Source: Verrucomicrobiota bacterium
GTDB lineage: Bacteria; Verrucomicrobiota; Verrucomicrobiia; JAWXBN01
Reading direction: 5' to 3'
Length of the DNA stretch: 36,047 nucleotides
NCBI GenBank assembly: GCA_034440155.1
Contig: JAWXBN010000045.1
Span: 1-36,047 of the forward strand
Under the pieces are notes generated by a model. The model saw only the letters and a list, made by a program, of their open reading frames with translations. It did no database searches and was not told where the DNA came from. Numbering within the stretch: position 1 is the first letter of the stretch; each line of letters starts with the position of its first letter. The position numbers and the translations under genes were made by a program. Shown here in pieces: positions 17,617 through 34,123 of this stretch.

Positions 17617-20184
17617 ATGTCGACGATCTTGGAGACACCGTCTCCTTATTACACACCTACAGCTTTTCATCCCCGTGGAAGGGTTAAAGCTAATGCTAAG
17701 TTCTTTTTCCGTGGCGGACTCAAATTTTTTGTTAAGGGAGTGACCTACGGTCCTTTTGCCCCCTACGTCAATGGGGTCTATTTACATTCGCCCGATCTTA
17801 CACGTAGGGATTTACAAATGATTAAGGAACTCGGGGCCAATGTCCTGCGTTTGTATCATGTGCCCCCACGTTGGTTTCTCGACATGTGTTATGAGTACGA
17901 CCTCCAAGTACTCATCACGATTCCTTGGGAACAACATGTGAATTTCCTCGATAGCCAGAATAGCCGGAAAATTATCGAGAATAAAATCCGCACAGGCGTT
18001 CGTCAAAACGAAGGGCATCCTGCACTTTTTGGTTATATGGTCGGTAATGAGATCCCCCCTTCGACAGTCCGTTGGTACGGACTCAGCCGGGTACAGTCTT
18101 TCTTAGAAAATCTCGTGAATATCGCCAAGGAGGAAGACGATAAGACTTTGGTGACTTATGCGAATTTCCCTTCCACAGAATACTTGATCCCGGCAAATAT
18201 CGATTTTTGCTCATATAATGTTTACCTGGAAAATCCGGCTTCCTTTGAAAAATACCTCGCGCGGCTTCATAATATTTCCGGTGACAAACCCCTGATGCTT
18301 GGGGAGTTTGGCCTTGATTCGATCCGCAATACAGAAGAAAAACAGGCCGAGATACTGGGTTGGCATGTGAAAACCGTCGGACAAATGGGTTTGGCAGGAA
18401 CCATTCTTTTCTCGTGGACGGATGATTGGTACACGGGAAACCATCAAATTACCGATTGGGCTTTTGGACTAGTGGATGCCGAGCGCCGCCCGAAAAAATC
18501 CTATTTCAGGATACAAGACTGTTTCCTCGATGAGGCCGATGGGAAAGCGGGCCAGAGGGTACCCCTGAGAGAATACCCCAAAGTCTCCGTGGTCGTATGC
18601 TCCTATAACGGGGGGAAAACACTGCAAGCCTGTCTCCAGAGCCTGACGGAAGTCGATTATCCCCATTATGAAATTATCCTCGTCGATGATGGGTCCACGG
18701 ATGATACCCAGACAATCACCAAAGACTTTCCCCACATGATCAATATCCGCCAGAAAAACATGGGTTTGAGTTATGCCCGTAATGTCGGGTATCAGCATGC
18801 CACTGGGGATATCATCGCCTATACTGATTCGGACTGTATGGCCGACCGTGACTGGCTTTATTATCTGGTATCGACCATTACGAGCGGAAACTACGCGGGT
18901 GTCGGAGGTCCAAATATCTCTCCTCCCGCACAAAACTGGGTTCAAGCCTGTGTTGCCGCAGCACCAGGTTCCCCCAGCCACGTACTTGTCAGCGATGTGG
19001 TGGCGGAGCATATTCCTGGTTGCAATATGGCTTTTTGGAAATGGGCTATCGATGCGATCGGCGGATGGGATATTGAGTACCGCAAAGCGGGTGACGATGT
19101 GGATTTTTGTTGGCGTCTCCAACAGGCCGGGTATGAGATATCATTCAGTCCTTCGGCGATTGTCTGGCACCATCGTCGTTTTTCGGTAAAAGCATTTTAT
19201 AAACAGCAAGCCGGTTACGGGGAAGCTGAAGCACTCCTGAGGTTTAAGCATCTCATTTTTTTCACCCCAAACGGGAATGCCAAATGGCGCGGAATCGTTT
19301 ATGGGCTTCCTATCGGCCCGAGCATCATTCAAAAACCCATCATTTACCACGGTCTCTTTGGCATGGGCCTTTTCCAATCAATTTATCCTTCGGATGATCC
19401 CGCCATCCTTGATTATACAGGTTCACTCGAATGGGTTTTAGCCGCCATCTGTGTGGGGATTATTTCCATTACTTTCCCGGTTTTAATCCCGATCGTGGTC
19501 TTGATGTTTTTGACCACCCTCTTTGCTGGACTGATGTATGCCGCACGCACGAAGCTGGAACCCAAATATGACACTTTAGCGAGCCGTTTTCTCGTCTGGG
19601 GCTTAGCAGTTTCACAGCCCCTGATCCGAGGCTGGAACCGTCATTACACTTGGATATCCCATAAGACGACTCCCTCCAAAATCCTCACGGGTGAGTCCTC
19701 CCATAAACCAAGTAACCAGTTCACACGCGACAATTCTCTGGCGTATTGGAGTGAAGAAGGAATCGAACGCGACCGGGTCATTACAAAAGTGTGTGATTTG
19801 CTTGAAGCTGAAAACTGGTCATACTCCCTGGATACCGGCTGGACAGACTGGGACATCCAGATTTACGGGAATTACTGGTGGGATATCAGGCTGCGGACCC
19901 AGACTGAAAATCACGGGGGTGATAAACGCCTGACCCGTATCCAGATGGATCCCAAAATGACACCTTTGACGATTGCATTAACCATACTGGTCGGGTTATT
20001 GACATTTACCCTTTATTTTTCAATCGAAATCCAGATAATTTACCTTCTCTGCGTTTTGAGTTTGATTGCCGTCTTCCTGATCTTCTGGGCCTACCGGATC
20101 AGGAGCCGTATCGGGCAAATCGTCATGGAAGCAGCCATCATCATTGGACTCACCCCGGTGAAAACGGACAAAAAGAAATCATAA
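17617..20184 (+). CDS. glycoside hydrolase (TIM-barrel) / GT2 glycosyltransferase membrane fusion
   Basis: An 855-residue two-enzyme protein. Residues 1-310 form a GH2/GH5-like TIM barrel: VKGVTYGPFAP, LRLYHVPPRWFLDMCYEY, the acid/base NE in GNEIPPS (about 143) and the nucleophile in LGEFGLD (about 230). From about 320 a family 2 glycosyltransferase begins: VSVVVCSYNGG, ILVDDGSTDD (about 355), the DxD TDSDC (about 402), and the acceptor region GDDVDFCWR (about 493) with WHHRR. Two membrane segments follow near 605-650, a soluble region near 690-780 and two more membrane segments near 782-830. No signal peptide precedes the GH domain, so both catalytic domains may face the cytoplasm, which would be unusual for a hydrolase. 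It may build or remodel a glycan at the membrane, or the GH domain may act as a transglycosylase; both are inference. Confidence 0.88.
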   Translation: MSTILETPSPYYTPTAFHPRGRVKANAKFFFRGGLKFFVKGVTYGPFAPYVNGVYLHSPDLTRRDLQMIKELGANVLRLYHVPPRWFLDMCYEYDLQVLITIPWEQHVNFLDSQNSRKIIENKIRTGVRQNEGHPALFGYMVGNEIPPSTVRWYGLSRVQSFLENLVNIAKEEDDKTLVTYANFPSTEYLIPANIDFCSYNVYLENPASFEKYLARLHNISGDKPLMLGEFGLDSIRNTEEKQAEILGWHVKTVGQMGLAGTILFSWTDDWYTGNHQITDWAFGLVDAERRPKKSYFRIQDCFLDEADGKAGQRVPLREYPKVSVVVCSYNGGKTLQACLQSLTEVDYPHYEIILVDDGSTDDTQTITKDFPHMINIRQKNMGLSYARNVGYQHATGDIIAYTDSDCMADRDWLYYLVSTITSGNYAGVGGPNISPPAQNWVQACVAAAPGSPSHVLVSDVVAEHIPGCNMAFWKWAIDAIGGWDIEYRKAGDDVDFCWRLQQAGYEISFSPSAIVWHHRRFSVKAFYKQQAGYGEAEALLRFKHLIFFTPNGNAKWRGIVYGLPIGPSIIQKPIIYHGLFGMGLFQSIYPSDDPAILDYTGSLEWVLAAICVGIISITFPVLIPIVVLMFLTTLFAGLMYAARTKLEPKYDTLASRFLVWGLAVSQPLIRGWNRHYTWISHKTTPSKILTGESSHKPSNQFTRDNSLAYWSEEGIERDRVITKVCDLLEAENWSYSLDTGWTDWDIQIYGNYWWDIRLRTQTENHGGDKRLTRIQMDPKMTPLTIALTILVGLLTFTLYFSIEIQIIYLLCVLSLIAVFLIFWAYRIRSRIGQIVMEAAIIIGLTPVKTDKKKS

Positions 20185-21228: not shown

Positions 21229-21762
21229 TTATAACGATTTAATGAGAAGGCACGGGTTGCCGCCATAAATCCCGTCCCCGGCAATCTCCCCTCGTACCAC
21301 AGAGGCGGGCTGGATGACGGCATGAGGCCTGATATGTGTGCCCGGACAAATAAAGGCGCGGGCGGCCACCCAGACACTTTCATCTATGATGATGGGGCCC
21401 GTCACGAGATCAAATGTCTCCTTGCGATAGTCGTGGCTGCCCGTACAGAGAAAGGCTTCCTGGGATATACAGACATGGGCCCCGATCCGAACCTCATCAA
21501 GGGAGAGAATCGTGGTCCCCTCACCGATCCAAGAGTAATCCCCGATTTTCAACCTCCACGGCATGGTAATATTCACTCGGGGACGAATCACTACTCCCGC
21601 ACCCACTTGCGCGCCAAAACACCTGAGTAAAAAACGTTTGAAAGAACCGGGATAAGGCAATGCACTTAAGAAAAAGGCTGCTTTTACGAGATACCAGAGG
21701 GACTCGGTGAAGAAGCTTTTTCCCCGGGAGTAACTTTTGTTATTAAACTGGTCGAGTCTCAT
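21229..21762 (-). CDS. WcaF-family O-acetyltransferase
   Basis: A 177-residue left-handed beta-helix acyltransferase similar to WcaF, which acetylates colanic-acid precursors. It opens with the family-typical MRLDQFNNKSYSRGKSF and a hydrophobic stretch (about 22-38). The hexapeptide repeats run from about 55 to 165 (VGAGVVIRPRVNITMP, IGDYSWIGEGTTILS, IGAHVCISQEAFLCTGSHD). The motif GSHDY contains the catalytic-type histidine, and GGNPCLLIK ends the helix as in the family. It is the last gene of the minus-strand polysaccharide cluster, 3 nt after a GT4 gene and 21 nt before the terminator. It probably decorates the glycan with acetyl groups. Confidence 0.9.
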   Translation of the reverse strand: MRLDQFNNKSYSRGKSFFTESLWYLVKAAFFLSALPYPGSFKRFLLRCFGAQVGAGVVIRPRVNITMPWRLKIGDYSWIGEGTTILSLDEVRIGAHVCISQEAFLCTGSHDYRKETFDLVTGPIIIDESVWVAARAFICPGTHIRPHAVIQPASVVRGEIAGDGIYGGNPCLLIKSL

Positions 21763-21765
21763 TTT

Positions 21766-22890
21766 TTAAAGTTTCTCCAGTGCACCGACCATTTGCGAGG
21801 CAATTTTTTCCCAAGTGTATTTTTCGCGGACAAGTGTCGCTCCCTTTTGCCCCATTTCATCGAGGTAATACTCAGGCAGACCGAGCAAATTGCGCAACCC
21901 CTCCTCAATGGAGGGTTCACTGGCTTCCACGATTTTTCCCGCCCCCACGGCGTCCACTTCAGGGAAATTACAGTTATGGGTGATGAGCACGGGTAATCCC
22001 GCTGCCAAAGCCTCCAGTACGGCCATACTGAAACCTTCCGAACGTGAAGGGAGCACAAAAAGCTGGGCATTTTTTAGCAGTGCCGCTTTTTCATTTCCAT
22101 GGACAAGGCCCAGTAATGTCACCCTTTTCCTGAGGTCACAAGAGTCGATCATCTGGTGCAGAATATCTCCGTATCCATCATCCCCCCCTGCAATGACGAG
22201 CTGCCATCCCGGGAAATCACGGTGCAATTTGCTCCAGGCTTTCACTAATAAATCCAAACCCTTTTTCTGATGCAGGCGGGAAAGAAAAACGATCCATTTT
22301 TTATTAAAAAGCTCTGGATGTTTAGCCGTTAAATCGAGCGCGGAAACTGGTCCTTCAAAATCCCCGGCCATAATCCCGTTGGGCAGAGTGACCACATTGG
22401 CTTGCGGACAATAATGTTTAATCTGGGCGGCCTCAGCTTCTGTCAAAGCCCTCCAGAGCGCGGCATCGCGGAAATTTTGGTTCTCAAAAAGCATCCTCAT
22501 GACCGATTTTTTATAAACCCCACGTTTCATCGCCCAGGGTTCGAGCATTCCATGGGGATGGATCACCAAAGGTTTATGCAGCTTGCGCGACAGCTGTCCG
22601 GCGACGAGATTCGGATATACCCACAGCCCATGGACATGGATGGAATCACACTCCCGGGCAAATTGCTCTGCCTGAATACCGTATGATCGAGAATAATAAA
22701 ACCGAGGGAGCAAATGGGGTTCAAAGCTATAAAGCCGAGGCACACTCTCCTGATCCCCCAGATCAGCATCCAGCCCCAGCAGGTCTGAACCATGTCCGGA
22801 ACTCAGGATATGCCCGTGCAAGGGATACAATGCCGTGGCAAAGCCCCCCATCTTCCGGTTCAACGTCTGGGATAGCTGGAGAAGTCTCAT
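21766..22890 (-). CDS. GT4-family glycosyltransferase
   Basis: A retaining glycosyltransferase with the GT-B fold. MRLLQLSQTLNRKMGGFATAL begins the N-terminal Rossmann domain, and HVHGLWVYPNLVAG and HPHGMLEPWAMKRG are acceptor-side motifs. The C-terminal donor domain shows IVFLSRLHQKKGLDLLVKAW, the VIAGGDDGYG strand and the GT4 E-x7-E in SEGFSMAVLEALAAGLPVL. I chose the ATG at 22890, which overlaps the upstream methyltransferase stop by 4 nt; a TTG at 22905 adds five residues and a 19-nt overlap. The protein is cytoplasmic or peripheral and would add one sugar of the repeat unit. Donor and acceptor cannot be told from sequence. Confidence 0.9.
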   Translation of the reverse strand: MRLLQLSQTLNRKMGGFATALYPLHGHILSSGHGSDLLGLDADLGDQESVPRLYSFEPHLLPRFYYSRSYGIQAEQFARECDSIHVHGLWVYPNLVAGQLSRKLHKPLVIHPHGMLEPWAMKRGVYKKSVMRMLFENQNFRDAALWRALTEAEAAQIKHYCPQANVVTLPNGIMAGDFEGPVSALDLTAKHPELFNKKWIVFLSRLHQKKGLDLLVKAWSKLHRDFPGWQLVIAGGDDGYGDILHQMIDSCDLRKRVTLLGLVHGNEKAALLKNAQLFVLPSRSEGFSMAVLEALAAGLPVLITHNCNFPEVDAVGAGKIVEASEPSIEEGLRNLLGLPEYYLDEMGQKGATLVREKYTWEKIASQMVGALEKL

Positions 22891-23636
22891 TGATTTTTTC
22901 GACAAACGTAAATCAAATTAAACCCAAAACGATTCGCCAATATTCCTCCAGCAAAGAATCTCTCGAATGCGAGTGAAAATGTACGGGGAAGGAGTGGAAC
23001 TAACCGCCCACTCAGGAATCCTAAACCATAAACCTTTTCAATTCGAAAACCATATTCGCCAAGGAGACCCCTCATCTGACGAGTGGAAAGATATTTAGGG
23101 CGTGGCTTTTTAAAGAAAAAACTCATGAATTGATGATAAGGATAAAATAATGCTTTGAGGCTATAGGGGTTAAGGTGCGTATTAATGATCATTATACCAT
23201 CAGGCTTGATTACTTTGGCAAGCCAATCAAGGGCTTTGAGCCTGACCTCATGCTCTACATTTGGGAAAAAACGAAATGACGTGATTAAATCATAACGTTT
23301 ATTATATTCACACGATTGATCAATGGAAACATCCAAGCAAATCAATTTTGATTTTTTGACTTTTGAAGCGGCGATTTTTAGCATCGCCTCTGAAATATCA
23401 ATCCCCTCTGAAGATTCCACCAAAGACTCTGTGACTTGAAGAATTCTACCCGTACCACAAGCAAAATCGAGATAACAACTCTTTTTTTCTGAAGTCAGCC
23501 CAGAAATAAAATGCATGAGGAAGCCTTTTTCGACCTCCCAATAAAGAGCTGATCCTGATGAAGGTGCATATTCATTTTTTTCATATTTCTCAGCTAATAC
23601 ATCCGTTTGAAAAAGGCTTTTATAATTCTCATTCAC
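22887..23636 (-). CDS. class I SAM-dependent methyltransferase
   Basis: A 249-residue Rossmann methyltransferase. Motif I is YLDFACGTGRILQVTE (about 57-72), the acidic motif II is EGIDISEAMLKIA, and motif IV is YDLITSFRFFPNV. LAKVIKPDGIMIINTH is the post-motif strand. The start is a GTG at 23636 that overlaps the stop of the upstream gene by 8 nt, in keeping with coupling; no better start is in frame. The C-terminal third has a basic stretch (YHQFMSFFFKKPRPKYLS) that may be membrane-associated. Lying between two glycosyltransferase genes, it probably methylates a sugar or glycan end, but the substrate is not determined. Confidence 0.82.
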   Translation of the reverse strand: MNENYKSLFQTDVLAEKYEKNEYAPSSGSALYWEVEKGFLMHFISGLTSEKKSCYLDFACGTGRILQVTESLVESSEGIDISEAMLKIAASKVKKSKLICLDVSIDQSCEYNKRYDLITSFRFFPNVEHEVRLKALDWLAKVIKPDGIMIINTHLNPYSLKALFYPYHQFMSFFFKKPRPKYLSTRQMRGLLGEYGFRIEKVYGLGFLSGRLVPLLPRTFSLAFERFFAGGILANRFGFNLIYVCRKNQ

Positions 23637-25848
23637 GCTCCACCTCCCAATAACGGGCGATAGCCCGGGCCAAAGAGTTCCCCCTAGTACACAAGTATAA
23701 GATTGCCATCTTGATATTCTTTCTAAATTCCCTGTCTTTGATGTCGTAACCCATTAAATGCTTCAAATGCTCCATGCCATGAGAAGGTTGTGGAACAATC
23801 GTCTTGATTAATAAAGAAAGATGAAAACTGAGATAGTCAGTCAAAACAGGGGCATTCATAGAGGAATACTCCCAATCGCAGAGGATAATTTCACCTTTAA
23901 CCTTAAATAGATTCCATGCTGTAAAATCCCCATGACAAAGGCATACGTCTAGTTGTGTATCCGTATAATTCTCCACAAAGTGCCTCAATGAAGAGGATAA
24001 ATGAAGTTCCTTGAGCTCAGTGATCCAATCTAATTGATTAAGAGATACCGTCCTATATCCAACCATCCTCAATCTTGAGGTAATGAGGGAAGGCATTTTA
24101 TCCCAAGTAAGGCAGTTAAAATTAGAAATGAGTGGTTCATAATCAAAACACAAAAAAGGAAAATCCCCGATAAGATGCACTAGAAATAAACGGGGAGCCC
24201 TAAATATCCCTTCATTTTTTAATTGTGCTACGGAAACAATACTATCAGCCTCATTTTGCATCTCCTTTAATGACCCATTTGAAAATCCTATTTTAATAAA
24301 ATATCGCACTTGCCCTGAGGCATCACATAAATACACATAGACTTTCCCTCGTTTAACTGTAGCTGGGTAAGTGATAAAATAACCATTGGCAGGTAATTTA
24401 AGTTTTTCGAGCAATGGTGATACCACTTCATTGATGATCTTTTTAACAGGATAATCACCGTAAGGACTCATGTTTGTTTCCTGCCTAAAAAAACAATCCA
24501 TACCCAAGGTATGAAGCATCTTTAATCCTGTGCGTAAAAATCTCTTTTTAAAACTCCTTCCCAGAATAAAGTCGTATGGGGATCGATCCTCTAGACGTAC
24601 AAACGAATCAGGAAGGGTCATGATAGGTTTGCCCCCGATAATAATGGACTGAGTCCCATGAAAAACACTCAAGGAAGATTTTTTCCTCGAATTGATCACC
24701 CTCCTTTTGAAAACGAATTGACTAGCTGAATAAAGATTCTTTCCGAAATCCAATGGTGAGAATCTTTTAATAATATCAAGCGAAGCTTTCCCCATTTCAA
24801 TAAGGCGATTGGAATTCGAAGAGATTTTCCCCATTAATTCGGATAATTGGGTAACAGAACGGGAGTTAAAACGATAACCATTTACATCATCTACGACTAA
24901 ATCAGCCGCAGCCCCAGTCGCATGCGTGCCAAGTACGGGCAAACCTGAGGCCATAGCCTCATTTACAACGAGTCCCCAAGGTTCATTATGGGCTGGATGA
25001 ATAAAAACTGATGCTAATCCATAATATGCAGGCAACTCTTCAATCTGCCTGAATCCCGGAAGATAGACCCCTTTAATCCCCCGATCTATGATCATCTTTT
25101 TGAGCTCAGGCATGAGTGGACCATCGCCTAAAATCACTAAGTCCCACGGAGAGGAATGATTCTTACGATAAAGCTCAAAAGCCATAATCAGGCCATCAAT
25201 ATTTTTTCTCGGAATAAAACGGCTGGACGCGAGAAAAAACGGCCCATTCGGTATATTTAGTTTTGACCGAAGACTCTCGTCACATTTTCCCTGAAAGCTC
25301 TGACTCTCCTTAAAAAAGTAATCATTATCGACAATATCATATTTCTCAAAAATCTGTTGATAAGGCACTCTTAAACTCTCAAGATATCGGCGGTGCTCCG
25401 AGCCGCCGCAAAATGCTGCATCGATACTCTTTAAATAAATTTTCTTCAGAAATTCAACAGGGAATAACCTGAACTTATCATCCCCCTTTGTTTCCGTCAT
25501 GAGTATGATTTGTTTCCGATTCTCCCTGGCCCAGCGGATCATGCACCGTGAATCAGGAAGCCTATACCCACAGACAACTAGAATATCAGGATTAAGAGAG
25601 TCTAACTCCTGACTGATTTTCGACGACATTACTCCGGCTGGAATATCCTCGTAAACCAAATCCGGGAAAAGAGTAATCCTCTTAAACCCACAATCACCCG
25701 TAATTTTATCCCATAAATAGGTTTTATCGGAACCCGCAATCTCAAGTGCGGTTAATTCATCACCGACACTATTAAAAACTCCGTAGGCCGCCTTGATCCG
25801 GGCCAAATGATAAGGGCCAAAACGCGGCCATGAAATCAGGACTTTCAT
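23629..25848 (-). CDS. GT4 glycosyltransferase / APH-type kinase fusion
   Basis: A 739-residue protein with two enzymes. Residues 1 to about 390 form a GT4 transferase: FFLASSRFIPRKNIDGLI, VILGDGPLMPELK and the E-x7-E in EPWGLVVNEAMASG (about 288-296). After a linker, residues ~450-739 form an aminoglycoside-phosphotransferase/choline-kinase-like fold: a candidate ATP-binding lysine in YFIKIGF (about 516-520), the catalytic loop HGDFTAWN (about 639) and the metal-binding CDWEY (about 658). In glycan pathways such kinases may phosphorylate sugars or lipid-linked intermediates or cap a chain; which applies here is unknown. It overlaps the upstream GT2 by 4 nt and the downstream methyltransferase by 8 nt. 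The stretch is more AT-rich than the housekeeping region. Confidence 0.88.
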   Translation of the reverse strand: MKVLISWPRFGPYHLARIKAAYGVFNSVGDELTALEIAGSDKTYLWDKITGDCGFKRITLFPDLVYEDIPAGVMSSKISQELDSLNPDILVVCGYRLPDSRCMIRWARENRKQIILMTETKGDDKFRLFPVEFLKKIYLKSIDAAFCGGSEHRRYLESLRVPYQQIFEKYDIVDNDYFFKESQSFQGKCDESLRSKLNIPNGPFFLASSRFIPRKNIDGLIMAFELYRKNHSSPWDLVILGDGPLMPELKKMIIDRGIKGVYLPGFRQIEELPAYYGLASVFIHPAHNEPWGLVVNEAMASGLPVLGTHATGAAADLVVDDVNGYRFNSRSVTQLSELMGKISSNSNRLIEMGKASLDIIKRFSPLDFGKNLYSASQFVFKRRVINSRKKSSLSVFHGTQSIIIGGKPIMTLPDSFVRLEDRSPYDFILGRSFKKRFLRTGLKMLHTLGMDCFFRQETNMSPYGDYPVKKIINEVVSPLLEKLKLPANGYFITYPATVKRGKVYVYLCDASGQVRYFIKIGFSNGSLKEMQNEADSIVSVAQLKNEGIFRAPRLFLVHLIGDFPFLCFDYEPLISNFNCLTWDKMPSLITSRLRMVGYRTVSLNQLDWITELKELHLSSSLRHFVENYTDTQLDVCLCHGDFTAWNLFKVKGEIILCDWEYSSMNAPVLTDYLSFHLSLLIKTIVPQPSHGMEHLKHLMGYDIKDREFRKNIKMAILYLCTRGNSLARAIARYWEVERE

Positions 25849-26678
25849 TTGATATCGAGTATCCTTAATGGACTGATTTTCACAAGAAACATATCCTTCA
25901 GAGCGATCAAATTACCTGAAATCCGTTCAGGACTGCCTCTTAATAATTTTGAAAGATTTGATATTAAGGCTTTACCGATAAATGAAGTTATACATTCTGA
26001 TAATAAGAGTTCACCTTTGCAATGAAGATAATAGGGATTAGCGATCTGGGCATATCCAAATTTCTTGCCACCGATTCTTGATTCAGGCGACTTCAGGTGA
26101 ACCAGCCTACTCCCCAAATAATAGAGTAATTTACCTCTACTTTTAAGATAGTTTGAAAATGGGATTTCAAAAAGCCAAGAATATAGAGGTAGATTCTCAT
26201 CAAAGGAATATCCCTCAAGCGCAGTTCTCCTCACCATCATATTACACCCATAGAGACATACACAGGGATGAATCGATTCATTATCATTCTCATACTCTAA
26301 TAACTCTTGAGCAGTATTCCTGTCCATGAATTCGTCTTTTACGAGTAACCCATTAAACCCCACCGTTTCAGGATTCTTATCTAAGAAATTTATTCCTTTA
26401 AATATATAGTCGACTGCTATCTCCACGTCATCATCAAGAAAAAGCACATACTCCGTTTTAGCGTCTAAATGTTGTAGTGCCTGATTCAGCTGTTTTGTAA
26501 GACCCGGCTCAGAATAAACTACCGTTATTCCCTCAGCGACGCTCAGAGGCAGGTCTGCCGGAGAAGTCACCGAGAGGATCACCTGACTGGGGACAAACGA
26601 TTGGCGGGCTAGGCTCGTCAATGTATCAGCGAGCACTGCCGGGCGACCTTTAGACGCAATGATAACGGTTAGGGACAT
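25845..26678 (-). CDS. GT2-family glycosyltransferase
   Basis: An inverting GT-A glycosyltransferase of 277 residues. MSLTVIIASKGRPAVLADTL opens the nucleotide-sugar domain, LTKQLNQALQHLDAKTEYVLFLDDDVEI carries the DxD-type metal motif at about 84-86, and NMMVRRTALEGYSFDENLPLYSWLFE resembles the acceptor-side region. There is no C-terminal membrane segment, so it is cytoplasmic or peripheral. It is the first gene of the downstream section of the polysaccharide cluster and follows a 355-nt gap that holds a repeat block. It overlaps the GT4-kinase gene by 4 nt. Confidence 0.88.
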   Translation of the reverse strand: MSLTVIIASKGRPAVLADTLTSLARQSFVPSQVILSVTSPADLPLSVAEGITVVYSEPGLTKQLNQALQHLDAKTEYVLFLDDDVEIAVDYIFKGINFLDKNPETVGFNGLLVKDEFMDRNTAQELLEYENDNESIHPCVCLYGCNMMVRRTALEGYSFDENLPLYSWLFEIPFSNYLKSRGKLLYYLGSRLVHLKSPESRIGGKKFGYAQIANPYYLHCKGELLLSECITSFIGKALISNLSKLLRGSPERISGNLIALKDMFLVKISPLRILDIK

Positions 26679-26950
26679 GGGGGTGGGTAGGATATTAAAG
26701 ATTAAAGATGGGATCGAGTTAAAAGTTCAAAGGAGTAAGTTAAAAAAAAATGTTTGCAGATAACCCTTTGTCGGCTGCGTGATGGTGATGAGATTTGCTT
26801 CTGTGTAAATGGTTTCCAGAGGATTTCCTCCCCAAGAAACGAAATAGGGTATGCGTGTGTAGTCTAATGTACGAGGAATAAATCCAGAATCCCAGCAAAA
26901 CGGCGGTGCGGGATCACACGCCCCCCAGATGGAACATGCCCGCCCTCGCT
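26679..26950. other. intergenic stretch without a recognisable gene
   Basis: Apart from the candidate promoter at 26701-26730 I see no coding pattern, RNA gene or strong hairpin in this part of the gap between the GT2 gene and the toxin gene. The remaining part of the gap, from 26951, is repeat sequence described separately. Confidence 0.5.
26701..26730 (-). promoter_or_regulatory. candidate promoter before the GT2 gene
   Basis: On the minus strand TTGAAC (26730-26725) and TTTAAT (26706-26701) are separated by 18 nt and would start transcription about 16 nt before the ATG at 26678. The -10 box matches five of six consensus bases and the -35 four of six. It would give the five-gene section down to the WcaF-like gene its own promoter behind the toxin-antitoxin insertion. 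Confidence 0.32.
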
Positions 26951-27033
26951 CCCGGTCGAGCGAGAATCTCGACCCTCCATTTTATGCGTTCCGATCCTCA
27001 ACCTAGCACCTAGTACTTAGAACTGTTTTTCCC
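26951..27033. repeat. dispersed palindromic repeat, copy A
   Basis: Contains the hairpin with arms GGTCGAG (26954-26960) and CTCGACC (26968-26974), then CCTCCATTTT and a tail CTTAGAACTGTTTTTCCCC (27017 onwards). The same two pieces, in the same order and orientation, recur near 27904, 28168 and 34642. The tail ends exactly at the stop codon of the VapC gene (27034-27036). On the minus strand each copy reads GGAGGG followed by the hairpin, downstream of a gene end. Confidence 0.85.
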
Positions 27034-27435
27034 CTATTCCCCGCAATCCACGGTTTTCACAGAAGTATAATCGAGTAACTTTTTGTCGGCCGTCAGCAAA
27101 ACCAATCCATGATGGAGAGCTGTTGCGACTAGAATCCTATCTGCTGGGTCTTTGTGGATAGGTTCGGCCAAAGAGTAGGCCGCAGCGGCGATGTCGGATG
27201 AGAGTGGTATTTGTGTCAAATTTAGCTGTGCGACAGATGCTTTGATCCATTCGGGGGCTTTCATGGGAAGGAGAATTTTGCCCGCCCAAGACAATTGCGC
27301 GACCTCCAGCGAAGAAATCGCGGATACATAAAGTGAATTAGTCTCATCAAGTAGCAGTCCGGTCGTATGTGCGCCGAGTTTATCCGGACGAGATGCCGCC
27401 CAAAGCCAAACATGTGTATCCAGGAGGTAATTCAA
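27034..27435 (-). CDS. VapC-like PIN-domain toxin
   Basis: Predicted metal-dependent ribonuclease toxin. The acidic PIN residues are in place: Asp in NYLLDTHVWLW near the N-terminus, Glu in AISSLEVAQL, Asp in HKDPADRILVATAL and Asp in LLTADKKLL. I chose a TTG at 27435, which gives the family-typical start MNYLLDTHVWLW and overlaps the antitoxin stop as TTGA. A TTG at 27450 would add five residues (MGKSF). The 133-residue length is normal. It lies directly downstream of a Phd-type antitoxin gene, within the polysaccharide cluster. The stop codon falls at the edge of repeat copy A. Confidence 0.88.
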   Translation of the reverse strand: MNYLLDTHVWLWAASRPDKLGAHTTGLLLDETNSLYVSAISSLEVAQLSWAGKILLPMKAPEWIKASVAQLNLTQIPLSSDIAAAAYSLAEPIHKDPADRILVATALHHGLVLLTADKKLLDYTSVKTVDCGE

Positions 27436-27665
27436 GAAAGACTTTCCCAATCTGAAACGGAACTTTCATATTCAATGCCATCAGGAATCTGGGCACCATC
27501 CGTTAATCCTCCGAGGATCACTTTTTTTTCATTTTCCGCATAGGCGTGGATGGTTACTAGGGGTTTTCCCCGCAAAGTGACGACCAAGGGATGCCCGCTC
27601 TGATTCACCTTTTTGAGACTCTCGATACATTTTGCCTTGAATTCAGAGATTAATATCTTTTCCAT
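27432..27665 (-). CDS. Phd/YefM-type antitoxin
   Basis: A 77-residue antitoxin that should neutralise the downstream PIN toxin and repress their shared promoter. ISEFKAKCIESLKKVNQSG followed by PLVVTLRGKPLVTIHAY is the typical Phd/YefM DNA-binding N-terminus. The acidic C-terminus (GIEYESSVSDWESLS) would occupy the toxin active site. ATG start at 27665 has no Shine-Dalgarno sequence. The promoter at 27673-27701 would begin transcription within about one base of that ATG, so a leaderless mRNA is likely. The toxin start overlaps its stop by 4 nt. Confidence 0.85.
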   Translation of the reverse strand: MEKILISEFKAKCIESLKKVNQSGHPLVVTLRGKPLVTIHAYAENEKKVILGGLTDGAQIPDGIEYESSVSDWESLS

Positions 27666-27860: not shown

Positions 27861-27976
27861 TGGGCAGGACAGAGTAATTTGCCCGACACGTTTGTCCACA
27901 CACGGTCGAGCGAGAATCTTGACCCTCCATTTTTTTTTTAACTGAGCACTTAGTTCTTAGAACTGTTTTTCCCCTT
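27861..27976. repeat. dispersed palindromic repeat, copy B1
   Basis: Begins with GGGCAGGACAGAGTAATTTG, shared with the blocks at 33655 and 34448, then the GGTCGAG hairpin (27904-27924; its right arm is CTTGACC, which keeps the stem through a G-U pair in RNA), CCTCCATTTT and the CTTAGAACTGTTTTTCCCC tail at 27957-27974. No gene is associated with this copy. Confidence 0.85.
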
Positions 27977-28075: not shown

Positions 28076-28230
28076 GTGAGGGCTCGCTGCCGATGTCTGC
28101 CGTATCCGTGAAACTCTGACCTGTGGCAAGTGAGGGCTCGCTCGCCCTACACATTTGTCCGCACACGGTCGAGCGAGAATCTTGACCCTCCATTTTTTTA
28201 ACTCAGTACCCAGCACTTAGAACTGTTTTT
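28071..28230. repeat. dispersed palindromic repeat, copy B2
   Basis: Two direct copies of GGCAAGTGAGGGCTCGCT (28071 and 28115) flank a spacer that is also found in the block at 34566-34601. They are followed by the GGTCGAG hairpin (28167-28187), CCTCCATTTT and the ACTTAGAACTGTTTTTT tail. The tail lies about 24 nt downstream of the polymerase-like gene's stop codon. A small GC-rich hairpin (28238-28252) sits between them. Confidence 0.85.
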
Positions 28231-28253: not shown

Positions 28254-29837
28254 TCACTCCTGTGTGGCTTTATTCGGGGTCGGGGGATTCATTGTCCGTT
28301 TGGGATAACTGATATTCCTCACATGGGAAACAGGCCCTGTAGGTTGCGGGACTTCTTGATCTTCATTTGCAGGTGCGAATGGAGGAAAAGAGGGAGCAAA
28401 TCCTGCATCTGGATTCTCGAGTGAAGTTATTTTTGAACGGTCGCCCTGTGGGAACCATTTCGCCCCAGGTGCCCTATAGATGATGATAACAAGAAGCACT
28501 GGCAAATATCCCATAAACGCATTGGCACCGTCAATCGCGACAGTTCCTCCTCGTGCGAGACCTGGCATAGCCGCTAAAAAACATGCATAAAGGGTTTGAA
28601 CATTGATGGAGAAATACCTTCTTGTCACCCAATTATAAAGTAAGGCCAATCCTACCCCCTGAATAAATGCGCAAATGACCCCACCCACAAAACCAAAATT
28701 CTCATAATTTTGTCCTAAAAATGTGGGGGAAAAACCCAATGTCCCACTCTCGCGGTTAATATTTTCACTCAGTCGATTCGAGTCCGCCAAAAAAATACCT
28801 TTAAGATGTATCCCTACCGTAAGGGGCTTTTTAATCCCTAAATATTGTTCAACAAAACTCCTCGGCCACCAATGCCAGAGGACAGCAGCATAACTTTTCC
28901 CCCACAGATAACCCTCTTCATCATTAAAATATTTCATATTCATGGCCATTCCTTCGACCCCATTAAAATCTTCAGAAGCTGATAACCTCTCTGTGTAGTA
29001 GCGATATATATTGGAAAAGTTAAGTTCATTCCCCTTATTTTCCTCGTCATAAGCCACGCGCATGGCACCGGCAAGATTAAAAAGAAAAAGTCCAAATAAA
29101 AACGAAAGAATTAATACTGATTGAAGCTTTTTTGATGTAGGATTAAAGCGGAGAAGGAGAATACCAAACGCCACCAAAGGAGCAACTAATTGGAATCTCC
29201 CCTGTGTAGAAAAACTTGTGTATAAATAAATCGCAAAGGCGATCAAAAGAATAAAATATGTCGGATTAAAAATGGATGACCTGAACTTATAGGGAATCCG
29301 TCCGACAATATAGACAGTAATCAGCGTTAAAATACCTGATTTTGTAAAAATCAACATATAAACATAAGCAGATGTATTCCCATACCCATTCATCTGCAAC
29401 TTTTGGGTACTCCATTGACCTAAAGAAAGAAATATCACGGTAAAAAGTATAAGTCCGAAAGGCCCAAGGCGTGCCATTCCTTCCCCATGTTCTTTCGACC
29501 ACTTAAGTGAGATACCTGGAGAATTTACTTTTGGATGGGCAAAAAACTGATAACCGCATAACATAGCGATCATTGAGCAAATCACATAATAAGCAATCTT
29601 CTGGAAAGTAGCTAAAGGATCCACTTCCCCCGTTAAATTCTGAAAAAGTCCCCAAGACTCAGGACTACTCAGGAAAACCAATCGGAATCCCATAAAAAGG
29701 GCTAAGAGGGCAAAAGGAATATGAATCGGATTGTCAAAAATAATTCTACGGTAACGGATAAAATCAACTAATGCCGGGCTCAATGAGAGGGCAATAATCC
29801 AATAACCATACACTTCAATTTCTAATATATTATCCAT
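28254..29837 (-). CDS. polytopic membrane protein, putative Wzy-type polysaccharide polymerase
   Basis: A 527-residue inner-membrane protein with about ten or more hydrophobic segments (for example IPFALLALFMGFRLVFL, FGLILFTVIFLSLG and FVGGVICAFIQGVGLALLY). A large extracytoplasmic-type loop lies around residues 260-380. The last ~65 residues are a Pro-rich hydrophilic tail (FAPSFPPFAPANEDQEVPQP). The layout fits O-antigen or exopolysaccharide polymerases, a family that varies greatly in sequence, so the name rests mainly on topology and context. It overlaps nothing but lies 3 nt after the FkbM gene. An integral membrane protein of unrelated function remains possible. Confidence 0.6.
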   Translation of the reverse strand: MDNILEIEVYGYWIIALSLSPALVDFIRYRRIIFDNPIHIPFALLALFMGFRLVFLSSPESWGLFQNLTGEVDPLATFQKIAYYVICSMIAMLCGYQFFAHPKVNSPGISLKWSKEHGEGMARLGPFGLILFTVIFLSLGQWSTQKLQMNGYGNTSAYVYMLIFTKSGILTLITVYIVGRIPYKFRSSIFNPTYFILLIAFAIYLYTSFSTQGRFQLVAPLVAFGILLLRFNPTSKKLQSVLILSFLFGLFLFNLAGAMRVAYDEENKGNELNFSNIYRYYTERLSASEDFNGVEGMAMNMKYFNDEEGYLWGKSYAAVLWHWWPRSFVEQYLGIKKPLTVGIHLKGIFLADSNRLSENINRESGTLGFSPTFLGQNYENFGFVGGVICAFIQGVGLALLYNWVTRRYFSINVQTLYACFLAAMPGLARGGTVAIDGANAFMGYLPVLLVIIIYRAPGAKWFPQGDRSKITSLENPDAGFAPSFPPFAPANEDQEVPQPTGPVSHVRNISYPKRTMNPPTPNKATQE

Positions 29838-31174: not shown

Positions 31175-32530
31175 TTATATATCCTCCAAGTATTGTTTAT
31201 CCTTAAAAAAAGTAATAGGAATAATGACTGCCAAAGACATTAATAACCCGTACATCTGAAAAGGAAAATCAATCATTGCATAAATACAAAACCCTAAAAA
31301 TGAAACCATACCCGCACGCACAAACATCTTCTGCAAACGATCATGTGACAAGGCAACGAGAGTATACTGTTTAAAGGTGATTAATGTCAAAAACAGCAAA
31401 CAGAGACTGAGTCCTATAACACCTGTCTCTACTAAAAACTGGAGGTAATCATTATGCACATACTCCACCTTTAAATAAATCTCTGGACTCTTGAAAAATG
31501 GATAAACGATGGAGAAACTACCTAATCCCCAGCCCATAACGGGGTAAACAAAAAACATTTTTAATGAATCCTGGTATTGTAACCATCGCCAATCGTTTAC
31601 TAACCTTTGGCTTGAGTCACCAAATAATGAATGACTAACCCGGGCTGACATATCTCCTCCAAATAATATAAAGCAGAATAAAAATACCACAGATACACTT
31701 GTCAAAAATATCCAATTAATCCCAGACAAATATTTTCTCGTGATAAAAAACATCAAACATAATTCGAAAAATAGTATTAATAACCCCCCACGGCTAGCCG
31801 ACAAGAATACACCTCCTGATAAAACTAAACCAATAATTACGGTAAGATATTTCACATCATTTCTGCGATCATCATGCAGCTGATACCGCTCCTGTATCCA
31901 TACCCATAATACCCATATAAAAGGAAAAATGATATTAATATAGGCTGAAAAATGATTCCTGTTCACAAAAGGGCCGACAAACGTAACAGGAGTAATCGCA
32001 TCCCCCCTCCAGCTCAACGGGCGGAACCAGAGTAACTCCTCGGTTCCTGAAATCTTTTGTAGTATAGCGATAAAAACAAGTAATAAAGCGTTCACGATTA
32101 TGGCCATCAGGAATATTTTTTTATGTTTCGCACTGAAATCTGCACAAAAAACTGAAAGTGCCAATAACATGACAAAGAAATACCTGAAAAACTCATGATA
32201 TACCTGATTTGACCTGAGATGTGATGGCAGAAAAGAATGGGCTTTTTCAAGCATTGGTGTGCCATTAACTCCAAAAATATCTAATTCTGATGAAACAACG
32301 AGATAACTTGAAAAATAAAATAATAAAATCAAGCCCACAACTTTGATTATTCCCAGCCTATATAAATTCTTGTTTCTGCTCTTGTCCACAACTACTAATA
32401 TGAATAAGCATATTACTAAACAACACGCTATTTCAATAGACCATGATTCTACCGTTCCAAATGCCCAGGGAAGAAAAATAGTTAAGAGAATCAAAACAAA
32501 AAGCCTGAGGGAAGATAAAAAAACACTCAT
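31175..32530 (-). CDS. O-antigen ligase/polymerase-family membrane protein
   Basis: A 451-residue inner-membrane protein with about twelve hydrophobic segments. It has the WaaL/Wzy_C features: FVGPFVNRNHFSAY before a central segment, SASRGGLLILFF, GWGLGSFSIVYPFF and the large periplasmic-loop motif HNDYLQFLVETGVIG near residue 350. These proteins ligate O-antigen to lipid A core, or polymerise or ligate other lipid-linked glycans. It overlaps the GT4 gene upstream by 4 nt. Together with the polymerase-like protein at 28254 the cluster could hold one polymerase and one ligase. Which is which cannot be told from sequence. Confidence 0.9.
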   Translation of the reverse strand: MSVFLSSLRLFVLILLTIFLPWAFGTVESWSIEIACCLVICLFILVVVDKSRNKNLYRLGIIKVVGLILLFYFSSYLVVSSELDIFGVNGTPMLEKAHSFLPSHLRSNQVYHEFFRYFFVMLLALSVFCADFSAKHKKIFLMAIIVNALLLVFIAILQKISGTEELLWFRPLSWRGDAITPVTFVGPFVNRNHFSAYINIIFPFIWVLWVWIQERYQLHDDRRNDVKYLTVIIGLVLSGGVFLSASRGGLLILFFELCLMFFITRKYLSGINWIFLTSVSVVFLFCFILFGGDMSARVSHSLFGDSSQRLVNDWRWLQYQDSLKMFFVYPVMGWGLGSFSIVYPFFKSPEIYLKVEYVHNDYLQFLVETGVIGLSLCLLFLTLITFKQYTLVALSHDRLQKMFVRAGMVSFLGFCIYAMIDFPFQMYGLLMSLAVIIPITFFKDKQYLEDI

Positions 32531-33739: not shown

Positions 33740-34123
33740 TTACCACGCTATTTTAATATCATATTTGGTAATCATGGGGTCTGGTGTCACAATCGTCATT
33801 GTATTCTCAATGGCTGTAGCAATAATCATCCGGTCACAGGGGTCTTTATGAAACGGAGGAAGTGTCGCTGCCCTACTAGCAATAGCGAGACTGATCGGCA
33901 AGGTGTCTATCCCATAAAACTCAGAAATACCCTCTATCCACTCAGTCGGCGGAACGGGTAAATCCAGTTTTCCGATAGAATGTTTCCGGGCAATTTCAAA
34001 TGCTGAAATAGAGGAGATAAACAAAGACTCCTGACAGGTTTCTATTAGCTGTTTGGCCTTTTGCGAAAGGGATTCCTGATCCAGCCCTAGCCAGAGGAAA
34101 GTGCAGGTATCGAGTAAAAACAT
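33740..34123 (-). CDS. VapC-like PIN-domain toxin
   Basis: A 127-residue PIN-domain protein, predicted to be a metal-dependent RNase toxin. The acidic residues are in MFLLDTCTFLWLG near the N-terminus, SAFEIARKHSIGKLDLP, HKDPCDRMIIATAI and IVTPDPMITKY. It starts exactly where the antitoxin stop ends (0-nt gap), so translation is coupled. It is a different subtype from the toxin at 27034, with low similarity outside the motifs. The gene is flanked by repeat copies C and D and interrupts the polysaccharide cluster. Confidence 0.88.
   Translation of the reverse strand: MFLLDTCTFLWLGLDQESLSQKAKQLIETCQESLFISSISAFEIARKHSIGKLDLPVPPTEWIEGISEFYGIDTLPISLAIASRAATLPPFHKDPCDRMIIATAIENTMTIVTPDPMITKYDIKIAW

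Follow-up and report, generated by a model that had tools for sequence, protein, structure and literature searches.

A glycosyltransferase joined to an APH-type kinase in a polysaccharide gene cluster of a Verrucomicrobiota bacterium: a candidate enzyme for building a phosphorylated surface sugar

The stretch of DNA analysed here, referred to as the window (36,047 nucleotides), is the entire contig C45 of a Verrucomicrobiota genome of 2.76 Mb, which is 97% complete and in 132 contigs. On its minus strand is a tight run of five genes: a GT2 glycosyltransferase, a GT4 glycosyltransferase fused to a kinase, a SAM-dependent methyltransferase, a GT4 glycosyltransferase and a hexapeptide acyltransferase (Table 1). 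The fusion open reading frame (ORF) overlaps both the GT2 gene and the methyltransferase gene, which suggests that the run is one operon. Upstream of it, on the same strand, are genes for a polymerase-like membrane protein, two methyltransferases, a Wzy_C protein and two GT4 glycosyltransferases. Genes for a PhdYefM antitoxin (27432-27665) and a PIN toxin (27034-27450), on the minus strand, divide the polysaccharide cluster in two, and a further PIN gene is at 33740-34123. A 56-nt intergenic repeat is present in three copies (26931-26986, 27881-27936 and 28144-28199; core GGTCGAGCGAGAATCTYGACCCTCCATTTT), with one exact core on contig C132 and two looser copies elsewhere in the genome. On the plus strand, 17617-20184 encodes an 855-aa protein, in which an N-terminal glycoside-hydrolase-like TIM barrel is followed by a GT2 domain.

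Table 1. Features of the GT4-kinase gene and of the surrounding cluster; positions are those of the window, residues those of the fusion protein.
Feature	Position	Strand	Basis or remark
GT4-kinase fusion ORF, 739 aa	23629..25848	-	ORF calling, Pfam domains
GT4 (GT-B) glycosyltransferase domain, residues about 1-384; PF00534 core residues 192-354	24697..25848	-	Pfam
GT4 EX7E motif, E289 and E297	24958..24984	-	near-invariant columns of GT4 alignment
Short linker, about residues 384-393	24670..24699	-	AGGAGG adjoining (codons 382-383); TTG at residue 393 as a candidate internal start
APH-fold kinase domain, residues 393-739	23632..24672	-	family profile, alignment, AlphaFold, Foldseek
ATP lysine K519 (K133 of the kinase half)	24292..24294	-	conserved in all of 20 sequences and in at least 90% of 85
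Catalytic loop HGDFTAWN, residues 639-646	23911..23934	-	no variation in H, D, W and N across 85 sequences
Mg-binding DWE motif, residues 658-660	23869..23877	-	D and E without variation, W in at least 90% (85 sequences)
GT2 glycosyltransferase gene	25845..26678	-	4 bp overlap with fusion ORF
SAM-dependent methyltransferase gene	22887..23636	-	8 bp overlap with fusion ORF
GT4 glycosyltransferase, in the fusion's gene run	21766..22905	-	Pfam
Hexapeptide-repeat acyltransferase, in the fusion's gene run	21229..21762	-	Pfam
Multi-spanning membrane protein, probably a Wzy-like polymerase	28254..29837	-	sequence inference, no Pfam match
Wzy_C O-antigen ligase/polymerase family protein	31175..32530	-	Pfam

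The fusion ORF begins with ATG and has no internal stops; given the base composition of the window, 739 codons in a row without a stop would arise with a probability of about 2e-18. The exact fusion is supported by one assembly (132 contigs), and there was no genome of the same genus or family among the genomes compared in which it could be checked. The linker is short and contains AGGAGG, which makes an internal start at TTG393 possible, and this TTG coincides with the usual start of stand-alone kinases. Thus, the fusion could be an assembly error, or could be made mostly as two proteins. That is very improbable, as one open frame spans both domains without requiring a frameshift, the spacing of AGGAGG to any standard start is poor, and independent fusions of glycosyltransferases with kinases are known elsewhere (see below). 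A candidate frameshift in the linker via a tandem out-of-frame stop was rejected, the letters reading GTGATC rather than GTGATAA.

The N-terminal half matches PF00534 (Glycos_transf_1) above the curated cut-off (residues 192-354, E 7.4e-31). It has the EX7E motif and, also in a near-invariant column of the GT4 alignment, a basic residue (K215), and its nearest annotated GT4 relatives are cyanobacterial genes from Gloeothece (35% over residues 1-375). The catalytic residues of the GT4 half are intact, and it is predicted to be an active glycosyltransferase.

Pfam sees the kinase half weakly and around the catalytic loop, as Choline_kinase (3.5e-5) and APH (0.007), both below the cut-off. For PF01636 (APH) it scores 16.6-19 bits where 23.2 are needed, because it is divergent; several of its homologues do pass. 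For PF01633 (LicA/choline kinase) it scores 23.7-25.2 bits where 29 are needed, over residues 617-666 only. An AlphaFold model, with the family alignment as input, has a pLDDT of 85.1 and a pTM of 0.85. The best Foldseek matches of this model are aminoglycoside phosphotransferases, with APH(3')-IIa the top match in the PDB (E 4.7e-7), and maltokinase is among the top 50 PDB matches. Assignment of the domain to the superfamily of APH and choline kinases (PF01636, PF01633; APH(3'), LicA, maltokinase) is by fold and residues only, i.e., the kinase fold, the ATP lysine, a conserved glutamate, the HxD...N loop and the D-x-E metal motif. The domain differs from that superfamily in its distinct N-terminal segment, in the tryptophans of HGDFxxWN and DWE, in its polysaccharide-cluster context and in having whole-domain similarity below the Pfam cut-offs.

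Eight residues are invariant in 85 family sequences (E147, H253, D255, W259, N260, D272, E274 and D285, in kinase-half numbering). The window kinase has all eight, together with K133; in the numbering of the fusion, K519, E533, HGDFTAWN and DWE align with invariant or near-invariant family columns. With no variation at these eight positions of the active site, and with the ATP lysine kept in at least 90% of the 85 sequences, loss of ATP binding is unlikely. Perhaps the domain is a non-catalytic module that binds an acceptor or has a regulatory role: its N-lobe is divergent, and the near-invariant G107 of the family is a threonine in the window (FITYPATVKRGK). Given that every catalytic and metal residue is kept, this is extremely improbable. 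By sequence and fold, the kinase half is an intact enzyme, from which we infer activity. A first-pass annotation of this DNA had described a GT4 glycosyltransferase and an APH-type kinase in one ORF within a polysaccharide cluster, and had judged the kinase likely active from its candidate ATP lysine, HGDFTAWN and DWE. That description agrees with the domain match, the modelled fold (pLDDT 85), the family alignment, in which the homologues retain the ATP- and Mg-binding residues, and the GT2, GT4, acyltransferase and Wzy_C genes around the fusion; activity remains a prediction.

From its profile match and its invariant residues, the window kinase belongs to a large, divergent and uncharacterised family, whose members are called just "phosphotransferase" where they are annotated and can be traced through many phyla. 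Scanning the single kinase sequence against the genome contigs gave zero matches, as did a plasmid search with the window kinase alone. A search with the kinase half of 384 genomes of the same class gave weak matches, several of which are stand-alone proteins of about 350-390 aa inside glycosyltransferase clusters. A profile built from those relatives and the window kinase (A1) matched 21 of the 384 genomes, all but one with E < 1e-45. The window kinase itself matches a 7-sequence family profile, in which it is included, with E 4.9e-104. A 20-row profile was run against 260 genomes of one family, of which 42 matched, and 40 of another, of which 11 matched. A conserved pattern, taken from the 20-sequence alignment, was scanned across 84,980 species and picked up 230 related stretches. 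The 80 that were retained represent Bacteroidota, Planctomycetota, Acidobacteriota, Pseudomonadota, Calditrichota and others. Against PDB sequences, the family profile scores best with choline kinase, APH and fructosamine-3-kinase (E about 1e-5). Few members have diverged as far as the window kinase (end branch 1.97, best identity 22%), whose position in the tree is uncertain for that reason; a join of the window with L078, between two long branches, was not relied on. Literature searches found no paper on the family and no assayed member in the literature searched.

Joining of the kinase to a glycosyltransferase has occurred repeatedly, whereas the exact architecture of the window is rare. 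Pfam identifies a kinase-GT4 protein, reversed in order relative to the window, in a gammaproteobacterial MAG (L116), and kinase-GT2 fusions in L042, L054 and L190. L192 is probably a GT-B-kinase fusion in the same order as in the window: its N-terminal half has a 91% profile probability to GT4, a reading based on profile comparison, the model of that half having a pLDDT of 49; there, Pfam detects no glycosyltransferase and NCBIfam a marginal one. Thus, a search for the domain pair in other glycan clusters, as the first-pass annotation proposed, showed that fusion is not unique to this sequence. In L046 and in L078, the nearest row of the tree, a separate GT4 gene is directly upstream of the kinase. 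Two of the kinase-GT2 fusions (L042:7781-10612, minus strand; L190:1393-3930, plus strand) run on into a C-terminal region with a PAS-like match.

The neighbours of family kinases were counted in loci picked by similarity to the window kinase, rather than in a random sample. Directly upstream are Wzy_C (15/66), GT4 (13/66), thymidylate kinase (9/66) and flippase-type proteins (3/66); directly downstream are GT4 (22/52) and hexapeptide acyltransferases (11/52). A GT4 gene is somewhere in the locus in 89 of 99 cases, and SAM methyltransferases are rare as neighbours (about 1/66 upstream and about 1/52 downstream). Two annotated plasmids, outside the set from which the profile was built, give the same picture. 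In Leisingera sp. NJS204 the order is GT4, flippase, phosphotransferase, EpsG polymerase, thymidylate-kinase-like protein, double GT4 and rhamnose genes; in Agrobacterium leguminum a similar cluster has the kinase among sugar transferase and glycosyltransferase genes. The two kinases (WP_164982827.1 and WP_304984092.1) match the profile with E 5e-23 and 6e-28, respectively.

Taking together the Wzy-type genes of the window, the neighbours of its relatives, the plasmid clusters and a genome in which Wzt_C (PF14524) was not detected (97% complete), the cluster pathway is most likely of the Wzx/Wzy type. A search of the genome for Wzx with PF14667 gave a match below the cut-off, located elsewhere, and no flippase was identified in the cluster. 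The type of pathway bears on a suggestion of the first-pass annotation, namely a phosphate cap that stops chain growth. WbdD of E. coli O9a is a kinase-methyltransferase terminator, with a kinase like eukaryotic protein kinases, in an ABC-exported pathway [see PMC3482155]. By analogy, the window kinase would phosphorylate the non-reducing end, the adjoining methyltransferase would methylate the phosphate, and growth of the chain would stop. In both cases a kinase would act together with a methyltransferase, on glycans and from within a glycan cluster, and in the window the two genes overlap by 8 bp. However, the window kinase is APH-type and GT4-fused, the match of WbdD to the family profile is sub-significant (E 0.31), and the cluster has a Wzy_C protein and a second polymerase-like protein, with no Wzt carbohydrate-binding domain, as expected for ABC export, detected in the genome. 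In addition, a homologue is flanked by a flippase and an EpsG/Wzy polymerase, and few family members have a methyltransferase gene next to the kinase. A chain-stopping cap is not borne out, and a terminator of the WbdD type, with its methyl-phosphate, is quite improbable. Separately, one ORF (L060:7852-9990, plus strand) has a methyltransferase-like N-terminal half (by eye) and an APH-type kinase; it resembles the domain pair of WbdD but differs in the type of kinase.

Most APH-fold kinases whose function is known, e.g. the choline kinase LicA and maltokinase, have small molecules as substrates. In the main rival to the preferred reading, the substrate of the kinase half is a small soluble precursor (a free sugar, polyol or amino alcohol), as for LicA or maltokinase, and the fusion serves to pass the activated precursor on to the glycosyltransferase. 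In keeping with this, the best PDB sequence match is a choline kinase with a similar stretch, DWEYSSMN; that similarity is below the Pfam cut-off and limited to the catalytic loop. Maltokinase has an APH-like fold with an extra N-terminal subdomain, acts on a sugar and is often fused to a sugar enzyme, the bifunctional TreS-Mak being the precedent for such a fusion [see PMC4306142]. It shares the APH-like kinase fold with the window kinase, and differs in partner enzyme and pathway, the match being of fold only and not of sequence at family level. The neighbours of the family are assembly genes, and among the immediate neighbours (66 upstream, 52 downstream) there is no recurrent cytidylyltransferase or sugar-1-phosphate nucleotidyltransferase, which makes a soluble substrate somewhat unlikely.

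The fusion joins a glycosyltransferase to an apparently active kinase from a family of polysaccharide clusters, and its probable product is a phosphorylated surface sugar. From a single ORF, two domains with intact catalytic residues, the cluster context of the family and the recurrence of such fusions, we infer a bifunctional enzyme of the Wzx/Wzy pathway in which the GT4 reaction is coupled to phosphorylation of a glycan rather than of a soluble molecule; for this reading as a whole, the balance is about even. The N-terminal domain would use a nucleotide sugar as donor and add its sugar with retention. The C-terminal domain would transfer phosphate from ATP to a sugar hydroxyl. The likeliest acceptor is the lipid-linked repeat unit under assembly, possibly at the very sugar that the GT4 domain has just added. 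The phosphorylated repeat unit would then be flipped and polymerised.

The most interesting by-product of this analysis is the pairing of the kinase with a thymidylate-kinase-like P-loop protein, which is present in 84 of 99 family loci (L041-L059, L061-L140). It is fused to the kinase in 26 loci, and a further 37 have it on the kinase's strand at a distance of no more than 150 bp. Its N-terminus is usually extended by about 200 residues or more, and this extension has no match in Pfam. This partner is common rather than universal, and hence does not define the family. There is none in the window, and the genome has one gene only above the Pfam cut-off for Thymidylate_kin, presumably the housekeeping tmk. 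The kinases of Leisingera and Agrobacterium share the kinase profile and the glycan-cluster setting with the window kinase; they are stand-alone and have the partner, whereas the window kinase is fused to GT4 and lacks it. As most members have the partner, the function of the window kinase may have drifted. Perhaps the APH-fold kinase and the thymidylate-kinase-like protein constitute an unrecognised glycan-phosphorylation system of Wzx/Wzy clusters, from which the window has lost the partner and hard-wired the kinase to GT4, coupling sugar addition to phosphorylation. This is a tentative proposal, with somewhat less than an even chance of being right.

If the reading of the fusion and its family as glycan-phosphorylating enzymes is right, many bacterial surface polysaccharides described by their sugars alone would bear phosphate added by a kinase, and the enzymes responsible would be a family whose annotation says no more than "phosphotransferase". 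The fused gene indicates the place where the kinase acts, i.e., beside sugar transfer, and the cultured hosts Leisingera sp. NJS204 and Agrobacterium leguminum AT13 make the function of the family open to experiment. A thymidylate-kinase-like partner was also noted for two other loci, L218 and L219.
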